This document shows, one piece after another, positions 34,004 to 37,722 of a stretch of DNA of 43,894 nucleotides. This DNA is from an uncultured archaeon (GTDB lineage Archaea; Nanobdellota; Nanobdellia; Woesearchaeales; CAIVOO01). The notes under the pieces are model-generated. The model saw nothing but the letters and a program-made list of their open reading frames with translations, made no database searches and was not told the DNA's origin. A program made the position numbers and the translations under genes. The stretch is from the NCBI GenBank assembly GCA_903904885.1, contig CAIVED010000034.1, positions 1-43,894 on the forward strand, written 5' to 3'. Position 1 is the stretch's first letter; every line of letters begins with the position of its first letter.

Positions 34004-34068
34004 ATTCTGTTTTATTTTTTTCACTTTTAATAAAGCCCTCTACTCCGTTCTTTAAAACAAAACGCCGG

Positions 34069-34242
34069 TTGCTGGTTCTTGCATTAATTCAGACGTTGTT
34101 TCAGCTTCCTCTGCTTGATTGCCATGCAATAAGTTGATTATTACTTGCCGAGCGCGATTAAGCGAGGCAAGTTAACGCAGGCCTGGCAGTGAAAGCAAAC
34201 CACTAAATCAAGGAGCATAAATAAGGCCTGCCCAGAAAATGG
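34069..34242 (+). ncRNA. Putative structured RNA, copy 1 (pseudoknotted)
   Basis: This intergenic segment is homologous to 37526-37691 and shares blocks TTGCTGGTTCTTG, TGCCATGCAA, TGGCAGT-AAAGCAA and CCAGAAAATGG. Helices: CTGG (34072-34075) with CCAG (34232-34235); TTCTTG (34076-34081) with CAAGGA (34209-34214); AGC (34103-34105) with GCT (34113-34115); ACTTGCC with GGCAAGT; GCAGGCCT (34177-34184) with AGGCCTGC (34224-34231). The TTCTTG and GCAGGCCT helices interleave, which makes a pseudoknot. G-U pairs work only on the plus strand. Ends are approximate. Confidence 0.6.
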
Positions 34243-34270
34243 GATTTTGCCAGGGGGAGGGGTTTCACTC

Positions 34271-34328
34271 CATATATTTATATATGTAATCCACTCCAGA
34301 GTAGTTAATGAACGAAAGGTTTATATAT
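34271..34328 (+). promoter_or_regulatory. Tandem TATA elements upstream of the surface-protein gene
   Basis: A palindromic CATATATTTATATATG (34271-34286) and a second TATA site GTTTATATATC (34319-34329) lie upstream of the ATG at 34396. With TSS about 26 bp further on they give leaders of roughly 90 and 50 nt. The start has a G-rich AGGGGGT ribosome site. Unlike most genes here it is not leaderless, as expected for an abundantly made protein. Confidence 0.5.
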
Positions 34329-34395
34329 CAGAGGCGTTTTTTAAGCATAATCGGGGGCGGAATTCAGATAACCAATTGCGTATAGGGGGTTAAAA

Positions 34396-36495
34396 ATGAA
34401 GAAAATTATTGCCATATTGCCGATAGTCATTTTCTTGGTTAGCGTAGCGTTTGCTTCAGCTTCTTTGAACATTAACGAGACAAACATCAACGCCACCGCA
34501 AATCCAGGGGCAACATTCTCAAAACAAATCACTCTGATAAACACAGAAAGCTCCCCCCTTGCTGTCACATTCAGCGGGCTTGACCTGTTCTGCGGTTCGG
34601 AGAAAATAACCGCAACCACAAGCGCAATGACAATCCCAGCAAATTCAACAGCCAAATCCTCAATACTGTTCTCAATACCAGCAAACAAGCTTGCATGCGC
34701 TTACCACGGGAACATAATCGCACAGGCAGGCAGCTTTGCAGACGGGGTTACGGCGGACATAACAGTAACTGCTGTTCCAAACATTGACGTTTCAAACAGG
34801 AGCGTTACACTGATGAAAAACCTTTCATCAATTGTTTTCCTTAATGCTGCTGTAAAGAACACCGGTAACGTGCCATTAAACATAGTATACCAGTATTCAA
34901 ACTTCAGCCGCTCAGGAAAGGTCCTTGAGATTGGAAGCGTAGGCTCCGATGTTGTGCCGATTGGAGACATTCATTATATTTCTATACCGCTGGTCACTCC
35001 AGACAACAGTTTTGGTGACGGCGATTTCACCTCGATTTTGAAGATAAACGGAACCATTGACAGGCAGTACGGGCTTACAGCAACCGTGAAAACACCTGCT
35101 CTGACAGTTTCATTGCCGGACTTCACGATGCCTGAAGCAGACAGGAACACAACCGTAACAGGCACTTTCACAATAAAAAACAACGGGGACTTCCCGCTTA
35201 GCGGAATAACACTTTCAACAGACGCAAACAGCAAATATCATGTTGAAATAGTGGACGTTCCTGACGCACTGTCACCGGGCGAAGAAGCTACAGTTTCAAT
35301 AACTGTTTTCATACCAAAAGACGAGAAAACAACTGCCCATGAGATAGGAAATCTTTTGTTCAAAAGCGACCTGCTTTCAAACACTGTGCCGCTCAGCATT
35401 AATGTTACAGGAAAGCTGAAGATTGAAGAGATTTCTGTAACCATTGACGGCTCCAAAAAGACCATAAAAGAGAATGGGGGTTCTATCACCAGCGACAGTA
35501 CGCAGCCAGGCTCTACTTTTGATGTTGATGCCAAGGTCTGCAACAAATATGATGACAAGGATGACAGCATTTCAGACATCGAGGGAACACTAACCTTTGA
35601 GGGAGTTGACGAGGGCAGCGACATAGACGGTGAAGTTTCATCCTTTGACCTTGACGGGAACAACAACTGCAAGACCGTAACTGCAACCTTTGATAAGAAC
35701 CAGATTTCCTACCTGACCGGGGATGGGGATTATGACTTGACAGTTGAATTCACAGGAAGTGATGACAATCATAAAAACATTGACCAGTCTGATGAATGGA
35801 CAATATCAATCAGGGTTTCCAGGGAGACAAGCACCAAAATATTGCTAAATGAGGTTTCTCTCAGCCCATCAGCCATAGGCTGCGGCTCCAGCGTAAACCT
35901 TTATGTTCTAGCCTACAACATAGGCGACAGGGACAGCGATGCAAAGATGACAATCTCAAGCTCTGCTCTTGGAATTGACATGACCAAATTTTTCAAGATA
36001 GGAGACGTTGTTGACGACAACTGCGACGCAATTGAAAACCCTGATGACAAGTGCGTAGGCATAGACCACAGTTTCTCATTGAGCATACCTGTGGGAATTT
36101 CAGCAGGAACATACCCGATAGATGTGGCAGTTTACAAGGGAACCAATGCTCAGACAGACAAGAAAACAGTTAATCTGGCTGTCAGCTGCAACGGATACTC
36201 GCCTCTGCCAACCAACAATACCAATACTGGGAACACAAACACCGGAAATACAAACACAGGAAATACCAATACTGGAAATACAAACACTGGCAATACAGGA
36301 ACCGGCAGCACAGGCGGGGTAATAATCCAGCCAAGCCCAAACAGCGGCTCCTCAACAGCAGGAACTCCTGTAAAGGTAGTGAGCGTTTCAGGCACAAACG
36401 GGCTCTGGGTTGCAGGGCTGATTGCAGGAAACGTATTGCTTGTGATAATAATAATCTTGGTATTGCTTGCGATATTCAGGAGCAAGGCAGCTTAA
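34396..36495 (+). CDS. Surface protein with CARDB/NEW3-like domains and C-terminal TM anchor
   Basis: The 699-residue protein starts with a signal peptide (MKKIIAILPIVIFLVSVAFA). The mature part is a chain of beta-sandwich modules with phrases typical of CARDB/NEW3 domains (VKNTGNVPLNI, FTIKNNGDFPLSGITLS, VLAYNIGDRDSDAKMTI). It is acidic and Asn/Thr-rich with many N-x-S/T sites. An NTNTG repeat (residues about 605-640) leads to a single C-terminal helix (GLIAGNVLLVIIIILVLLAI) and a basic tail. This is the architecture of an anchored S-layer or cell-wall protein. The leader and tandem promoters support high expression; that it is the S-layer subunit is inference. Confidence 0.85.
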   Translation: MKKIIAILPIVIFLVSVAFASASLNINETNINATANPGATFSKQITLINTESSPLAVTFSGLDLFCGSEKITATTSAMTIPANSTAKSSILFSIPANKLACAYHGNIIAQAGSFADGVTADITVTAVPNIDVSNRSVTLMKNLSSIVFLNAAVKNTGNVPLNIVYQYSNFSRSGKVLEIGSVGSDVVPIGDIHYISIPLVTPDNSFGDGDFTSILKINGTIDRQYGLTATVKTPALTVSLPDFTMPEADRNTTVTGTFTIKNNGDFPLSGITLSTDANSKYHVEIVDVPDALSPGEEATVSITVFIPKDEKTTAHEIGNLLFKSDLLSNTVPLSINVTGKLKIEEISVTIDGSKKTIKENGGSITSDSTQPGSTFDVDAKVCNKYDDKDDSISDIEGTLTFEGVDEGSDIDGEVSSFDLDGNNNCKTVTATFDKNQISYLTGDGDYDLTVEFTGSDDNHKNIDQSDEWTISIRVSRETSTKILLNEVSLSPSAIGCGSSVNLYVLAYNIGDRDSDAKMTISSSALGIDMTKFFKIGDVVDDNCDAIENPDDKCVGIDHSFSLSIPVGISAGTYPIDVAVYKGTNAQTDKKTVNLAVSCNGYSPLPTNNTNTGNTNTGNTNTGNTNTGNTNTGNTGTGSTGGVIIQPSPNSGSSTAGTPVKVVSVSGTNGLWVAGLIAGNVLLVIIIILVLLAIFRSKAA
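36217..36303 (+). repeat. In-frame 15 bp tandem repeat encoding NTNTG units
   Basis: About five consecutive copies of a 15 bp unit encode N-T-N-T-G pentapeptides, with codon-level variation between copies. They form the flexible, probably O-glycosylated stalk just before the membrane anchor of the surface protein. Confidence 0.85.
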
Positions 36496-36514
36496 TTTTT
36501 TTATTTCTTTTAAA

Positions 36515-36940
36515 ATGCCAGACTTGATAATCCACGAACAATTGAAAATAAAGGAATATGATAATTGGGACTTGTTCTTGCATGTCCAGCAATATCCCTA
36601 CATAGGAAGATGCTATGCCTGGGCAAAACGGGATGATGCGCAGAGTATCATAGGCATAAGCCCTGAGGAAGTTGTTGAACTCTTTGGGTTCGTGATTCCT
36701 GAATGGAACCACGCAGTCTCAAAACTGTTTAATCATGATTTGCCAAATGTGGCATTTTTGGGGAACAGGACCCCGCACTTGCATGCTCAGTTGATTCCAA
36801 GGTATAAAAGCCCAAGAGAATTCTGCAAAATAAATTTTACAGACCCTCGGCCCGGAGGCAACTTTGCGCCTTATCCAAAAAAAGAGATTCCTCTGGAAAT
36901 GCTTTTGCAGATTAAGACTGAAATCAAAAGAGCGATTTAA
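36515..36940 (+). CDS. HIT-family nucleotide hydrolase or transferase (HxHxQ type)
   Basis: From 36515 the protein has 141 residues. It carries HLHAQLIPRY near residue 90, the histidine-triad motif with Gln in the third position as in GalT/Ap4A phosphorylase branches, and an upstream NRTP contact. The N-terminal half (DLFLHVQQYPYIGRCYAWAK) supplies the usual first strands. Members act on nucleotide-phosphate bonds. It follows the surface-protein gene and converges on the TYW3 gene with a 17 bp overlap. Confidence 0.8.
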   Translation: MPDLIIHEQLKIKEYDNWDLFLHVQQYPYIGRCYAWAKRDDAQSIIGISPEEVVELFGFVIPEWNHAVSKLFNHDLPNVAFLGNRTPHLHAQLIPRYKSPREFCKINFTDPRPGGNFAPYPKKEIPLEMLLQIKTEIKRAI

Positions 36941-37475
36941 GCAGGTGACTTATCTTCTCTTCATTTCTTTTCATCTTCCTGTTTGCTTCAGCCATAATTT
37001 TCTTCAGGTAACTTTCGTTAACAGCCATCTTGCCATCGAAGGCAATGGGCGCGCTGATGAAATCGGTTCCGCGGATTTCGGCAATGATTCTCTTGCCAAG
37101 ATTCATTATCCCCGAATGCTTGAATCCCGCGGATTTGGCTGATTCCAGCAGTTTATTTGCGCTTTCAATTGAATCGCAGCAGACGTGGAGAATCATCGGC
37201 TCAAACTTGAACCAGACCGGCTGCTTAGGGATTTTTTTCAAAGCATTTTTCAGCTGCGAGAATGTGATTTTATCATGGGAAACAAAAATCCAGTCCGCAT
37301 CCTTCTTGGTTTTGCCCTCAGCCATGAGCATAATCCTGCCCGAGCATGAAGATGTGGTGTAATATTCCTTTTTTGAGTTGATTTTGCCGATTAAATGGAT
37401 TATCTTTTTGTCAACGCTGCCTTTTTTAGAGAAATCTGCCCTTGAAAGCTGGATTTGCTTGGATTTTTCGAACAT
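36924..37475 (-). CDS. TYW3-family wybutosine-pathway protein
   Basis: The product (183 residues from the ATG at 37475) shows the TYW3 pattern: FSKKGSVDKKIIHLIGKINS, EYYTTSSCSGRIMLM near residue 45, WFKFEPMILHVCCDSIESAN, and a C-terminal DGKMAVNESYLKKIMAEAN. TYW3 methylates the tricyclic guanosine at position 37 of tRNA-Phe and occurs in archaea and eukaryotes only, a useful marker for the host. The ATG at 37475 is 25 bp from a TATA centre near 37500, better than the ATG at 37481. That TATA also faces the structured RNA copy 2. Confidence 0.88.
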   Translation of the reverse strand: MFEKSKQIQLSRADFSKKGSVDKKIIHLIGKINSKKEYYTTSSCSGRIMLMAEGKTKKDADWIFVSHDKITFSQLKNALKKIPKQPVWFKFEPMILHVCCDSIESANKLLESAKSAGFKHSGIMNLGKRIIAEIRGTDFISAPIAFDGKMAVNESYLKKIMAEANRKMKRNEEKISHLLKSLF

Positions 37476-37525
37476 GCGCATTCATATTCACTTCTATTTT
37501 TAAAGTTTTATGCAAACAATCCGTT

Positions 37526-37691
37526 TGCTGGTTCTTGTGTTACATTTAATGTTGTTTTGGCTTTTTATGCCTGAGTGCCATGCAAGAAATAAAAAATTAA
37601 CCGCTTATGCAGTTGTTATTTACCGCAATTCTGGCAGTAAAAGCAACAATTGAAATCAAGAAGCAATCCTAAGGGTTGCGCCAGAAAATGG
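37526..37691 (+). ncRNA. Putative structured RNA, copy 2 (pseudoknotted)
   Basis: Homologous to 34069-34242 and about 7 nt shorter between shared ends, so not a conserved reading frame. Equivalent helices: CTGG (37528-37531) with CCAG (37681-37684); TTCTTG (37532-37537) with CAAGAA (37657-37662); GGC (37559-37561) with GCC (37569-37571); AACCGC with GCAGTT in the variable hairpin; CGCAATTCT (37624-37632) with AGGGTTGCG (37672-37680). Bases differ from copy 1 while pairing is kept. A TATA site (ATTTTTAAAG, 37496-37505) lies about 26 bp before the conserved core, and a T-rich run follows it. Confidence 0.6.
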
Positions 37692-37722
37692 TTTTATTTT
37701 TTAGAGAATTATAAGAAATAAA

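Follow-up and report, generated by a model that had tools for sequence, protein, structure and literature searches.

What are the two similar intergenic stretches in this archaeal DNA: a structured RNA that happens to be present twice, or a repeat of another kind? Within the window, that is, the whole stretch of 43,894 nt that was analysed, positions 34059-34248 and 37515-37697 can be aligned with each other, in agreement with the shared blocks reported by the first-pass annotation. In the long helix, GCAGGCCT:AGGCCTGC of copy 1 is replaced by GCAATTCT:AGGGTTGC in copy 2 with every pair kept, exactly as had been claimed, and the closing CTGG:CCAG is present in both copies. The blocks and the compensation were thus confirmed, but not the pseudoknot and the fixed strand that had been proposed along with them. 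The parts of the two copies are the following.

34059..34248, plus strand: copy 1, both terminal inverted repeats included (covariance model R1, 180 bits, E 3.6e-41).
34059..34075, plus strand: left terminal inverted repeat of copy 1, AAAACGCCGGTTGCTGG (pattern AAAATTCCGTTTGCTGG, 3 mismatches).
34076..34132, plus strand: hairpin A of copy 1, the left module, with its conserved loop.
34076-34084 and 34124-34132, plus strand: stem of hairpin A in copy 1, TTCTTGCAT:ATGCAATAA (30-copy pairing, RNAalifold).
34143..34172, plus strand: central hairpin P4 of copy 1, ACTTGCC (34143-34149) with GGCAAGT (34166-34172), from covariation.
34177..34231, plus strand: hairpin C of copy 1, the right module, an inverted relative of A.
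34177-34184 and 34224-34231, plus strand: stem of hairpin C in copy 1, GCAGGCCT:AGGCCTGC (30-copy pairing).
34232..34248, minus strand: right terminal inverted repeat of copy 1, CCAGAAAATGGGATTTT (minus-strand pattern match).
37515..37697, plus strand: copy 2, diverged, right end approximate (covariance model R1, 137 bits, E 9.7e-31).
37515..37531, plus strand: left terminal inverted repeat of copy 2, AACAATCCGTTTGCTGG (pattern, 2 mismatches).
37532..37588, plus strand: hairpin A of copy 2, TTCTTGTGT (37532-37540) with ATGCAAGAA (37580-37588), two wobble pairs.
37589..37624, plus strand: central-hairpin region of copy 2, pairing lost.
37625..37679, plus strand: hairpin C of copy 2, GCAATTCT (37625-37632) with AGGGTTGC (37672-37679).

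The scores in this list are those of members, as both copies belong to model R1 by construction. Copy 2 is a decayed element that has lost its central hairpin. In single-sequence folding against shuffles, copy 1 was no better than the shuffled sequences (z -0.45) and copy 2 was somewhat better (z -2.8). Copy 2 adjoins a TYW3 gene; this family, which we take to be archaeal and eukaryotic, together with the style of the genes, suggests that the host is a DPANN-type archaeon. The window also holds a tandem 15-nt repeat in five registers (36217-36312), which encodes the NTGNT-type linker of a secreted protein (34396-36495).

Instead of two copies, the genome from which the window comes (1,310,209 bases in 44 contigs, 98.7% complete) carries about 72. 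With copy 1 as the query, a BLAST-type DNA search gave 42 matches in this genome, and a covariance model built from 30 copies gave 95; about 72 places were left after reverse-complement matches of the same sites had been dropped, a count that, like the flank analyses, describes the stretches around copies and not a reading of the whole genome. The homologue search and covariance model, which the first-pass annotation had proposed as a check, produced nothing credible elsewhere. There was no other match in an order-level sample of 353 genomes, this genome and both same-family genomes included, nor in the viral contigs searched, and the only match in a phylum-level sample of 371 genomes, in a genome of the same class, was weak, lay inside coding sequence and is ascribed to chance. 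Weak matches in one same-order genome were likewise set aside as chance or coding sequence, as was the one match of a pattern scan of genome contigs, a chance match inside a Bacteroidetes electron-transport (rnf-type) gene. In the sets searched, where the window's genus was represented by this genome alone and the strict filters of the large searches could let distant relatives escape, the copy family is restricted to one genome. Literature searches on such repeats in DPANN or Woesearchaeota returned nothing relevant.

The complete element has about 180 letters and is nearly mirror-symmetric. Its terminal inverted repeat, with the consensus AAAATYCCGTTTkCTGG, is found at both ends, and between the left one and its counterpart CCAGAAAACGGGATTTT lie, in this order, hairpin A, a linker, P4 and hairpin C. 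The consensus stem of hairpin A is TTCTTGCAT:ATGCAAGAA and that of hairpin C is either GCAGGCCT:AGGCCTGC or GCAGTTCT:AGAACTGC, each enclosing a loop of 39 nt; P4 is exemplified by ACTTGCC:GGCAAGT. A module therefore comprises the 17-nt end, a stem of 8-9 bp and the conserved 39-nt loop, and each element has two inverted copies of it flanking the short central hairpin. Loop A and the reverse complement of loop C are of equal length, start with TAATYTT and end with CTTGAKTGCC. When stem-anchored profiles of the left and right halves were compared, identity was 11.3/18 as against 4.9 +/- 1.0 for shuffled columns (p<5e-5); this comparison is the decisive one, an unanchored per-copy alignment of the halves having given no clear result. 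Because the loops match in this way far above shuffles, the element is best described as an inverted pair of one module. Many copies are matched by the covariance model in reverse complement too, with up to 70 bits.

The secondary structure is conserved and covaries, and it is real. RNAalifold, given the MAFFT alignment as its sole input, returned hairpins A, P4 and C, a three-hairpin clover. Over 30 copies, hairpin A is 98.5% paired and shows two pairs with two-sided changes, hairpin C is 94.6% paired with such changes at four of its eight pairs, and the strongest covariation is that of P4, with two-sided changes at six of seven pairs. Overall, two-sided changes affect 12 of 28 pairs, as opposed to 6.0 in shuffled data, and the share of paired cells is 95.0%, as opposed to 87.6%. 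In an unsupervised covariation test with a tree-based null, pairs of P4 and C ranked at the top; three P4 pairs had an E of 0.17 or less, while those of C were non-significant (E 2 or more). Covariation within copies was not found for the outer end arms. When single sequences are folded, a long hairpin competes with the clover, with a mean minimum energy of -50.1 versus -43.1 when the clover pairs are enforced.

The pseudoknot that had been proposed, TTCTTG:CAAGRA, fares less well in this larger family. It is 86.6% paired over the copies and shows no two-sided changes at all, and its 5' strand pairs locally with ATGCAAGAA in hairpin A. As this competing hairpin is better kept (98.5%), the pseudoknot is the less supported alternative, and RNAalifold picks the three plain hairpins instead. 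Part of the long-range complementarity behind it follows from the symmetry of the element. In the small hairpin described as AGC:GCT in one copy and GGC:GCC in the other, the two conserved G-C pairs are retained, whereas the outer pair, which varies, is probably unpaired across the family. The statement that no RNA family fits was borne out by Rfam, where no model matched at its gathering threshold and nothing at E<=1 was credible, the one match (E=0.6) being far under its gathering score. Absent from the first-pass annotation were the other copies, roughly 70 in number, the inverted repeat at the ends, the inverted duplication of the module and the placement at gene ends.

Some copies are incomplete. 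Solo half-elements consist of the left end and hairpin A only (L086-L092) and mostly stop close to where the central hairpin would begin. At one locus (L023:1992-2287), adjacent partial copies are accompanied by a 24-nt duplicated flank, apparently the result of a local tandem duplication. The genome also contains a second repeat, a double hairpin of about 55 nt with the form CGCAAGAAAA-tip-TTTTCTGCGCGCAGAAAA-tip-TTTTCTTGCG, in 21 cores; none was found in the two same-family genomes. Its tips are hypervariable between copies yet self-complementary. This second repeat is often inserted in the first element (L022, L024, L030, L035, L069, L070, L072, L073, L076, L077, L079, L080, L081, L092).

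The position of the copies relative to genes is far from even. As judged from gene calls by a simple coding-score finder, a heuristic that places a few copies over short predicted genes, probably in error, 28 of 71 copies lie in convergent spacers, 43 in tandem spacers (25 along the gene strand and 18 against it) and none in divergent ones; one further copy, at the limit of the sequence fetched around it, is outside this count. Divergent spacers make up 32% by length of the element-free spacers at the same loci, and the absence of divergent sites has a p of about 1.7e-12. Copies adjoin gene 3' ends in either orientation; the flanking stop codon lies at a median of 30 nt from the element on its 5' side and of 30.5 nt on its 3' side. 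On both sides, the stop codon is usually separated from the element by a T-rich stretch, probably the native terminator.

Traces of a mobilising enzyme were sought in a survey that covered Y1, the TnpB-type domain, DDE_Tnp_1 and reverse transcriptase. The Y1 transposase (PF01797, RAYT) had no match in this genome, although control genomes gave matches, and neither a TnpB-type zinc-ribbon domain nor a reverse transcriptase was found in it. Two genes with a DDE_Tnp_1 domain are present (L095, L096), and the terminal repeats of the element were found at neither. The longest flanking direct repeats have a mean of 5.5, compared with 5.0 for mismatched flanks, and reveal no consistent target-site duplication.

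Four other explanations can be weighed against these observations. The independent plus-strand RNA with a pseudoknot, in two copies, draws on the covarying stems and the lack of an Rfam match, and its strand was thought to be fixed by G-U pairs. In effect, G-U cells slightly exceed A-C cells (37 to 22 over the three hairpins of 62 copies, in an alignment that leans toward the plus strand), which does not fix a strand. Some 72 copies, located beside genes in both orientations, a pseudoknot helix that is less conserved than the rival hairpin and does not covary, and the lack of any visible TATA-type or other promoter consensus before the copies, where one was looked for, make this explanation very improbable. 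Even less credible is descent from a family of protein-coding genes. Parts of some copies do contain short open stretches, but variability is not focused on one codon position, blocks are invariant at all codon positions and frames are broken across the central hairpin, and a coding origin was rejected on these grounds.

Two further explanations give the repeat a function where it stands. It could be a cis-acting, bidirectional 3'-end element whose hairpins, formed on read-through, would terminate, trim or stabilise mRNA, perhaps with a putative host protein that binds the conserved loop. Nearly all copies adjoin a gene 3' end and none lies in a divergent promoter region; a quasi-palindrome would serve both directions, the outward ends are T-rich, and stems and loops are kept in diverged copies, where the invariance of the blocks could also reflect a host function. 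By contrast, the T-rich tract usually precedes the element, only about 70 gene ends have a copy, related genomes have none, and purifying selection against insertions in promoters would yield the same placement, so that this explanation is rather unlikely. A role in chromosome structure, of the kind suggested for bacterial BIMEs, in which convergent gene ends would be candidate binding sites for proteins or topoisomerase, would suit a symmetric DNA element with 28 of its 71 copies in convergent spacers, and only 4 element-free convergent gaps >60 nt are left in the fetched loci. The compensated stems, however, suggest a folded single strand over a duplex binding site, and we regard such a role as improbable.

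A dispersed DNA repeat of the REPIN/BIME type is instead indicated by the high copy number, the inverted repeats at the ends, the inverted duplicated modules and the confinement to a single genome. Most probably, the element is a lineage-specific, high-copy, quasi-palindromic extragenic repeat of the non-autonomous MITE/REPIN/BIME-like kind; its past mobility we infer from dispersal, nesting and the one-genome restriction, and not from observed movement. Single-stranded DNA, exposed during replication or transcription, would fold into either one long hairpin or the three-hairpin clover. An enzyme acting in trans may recognise the end and hairpin modules and move or copy the element, which would insert mostly into, or survive only in, spacers just past gene 3' ends. 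The copies may also serve the host, for instance as hairpins at transcript ends. More specifically, and more tentatively, the repeat may be a REPIN-like element moved by an enzyme other than Y1/RAYT, or a domesticated two-way 3'-end hairpin at about 70 gene ends; the former would involve recognition of the folded module, with its end, stem and 39-nt loop.

How does such a dispersed repeat compare with known systems? Prokaryotic MITEs such as ERIC, RUP and Correia are short, gene-free, quasi-palindromic sequences with terminal inverted repeats and many intergenic copies. The archaeal element shares all of these characteristics, although neither an autonomous element that matches it nor a clear target-site duplication was found. 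The omega RNAs of TnpB/IscB and group II introns are also structured, occur in many copies and are linked to mobile DNA; in contrast to these, the genome lacks both the TnpB zinc-ribbon and a reverse transcriptase, and no Rfam model matches. REPINs are inverted REP doublets with compensatory changes in the spacer hairpin and with hairpin and clover folds (PMC3116915), and REPs are located near gene 3' ends, in the spacers of convergent or unidirectional genes (PMC3733652). These studies concern bacterial genomes, where REPINs are tied to RAYT transposases (PMC3116915, PMC3733652). The archaeal element has the same plan, in which two inverted conserved units flank a less conserved hairpin spacer with compensatory changes, the same choice of long-hairpin and clover folds, an extragenic location, a high copy number and solo units. 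As with BIMEs and REPs, its inverted dimers occupy convergent or tandem spacers near gene 3' ends, and one palindrome family is associated with another. In contrast, its units of about 73 nt are far longer than REPs, its loops are much larger than those of BIMEs and REPs, its ends lack the GTAG or CGTC tag of the REP superfamilies, and it occurs in a single genome of an archaeal host in which no RAYT/Y1 transposase was found. Because it has neither the transposase nor the tag, the element is REPIN-like but not a REPIN.

In our best reading, what is new here is a lineage-specific family of archaeal palindromes, while its general REPIN/BIME-like architecture and placement are known. The family also carries a caution for RNA discovery, since dispersed palindromic DNA repeats can yield strong covariation without being RNA genes. 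If the reading is true, REPIN-type dimers in an archaeon without a Y1 transposase would mean that a different enzyme mobilises them or that the system has been orphaned, and would suggest that the dimer architecture arose more than once.
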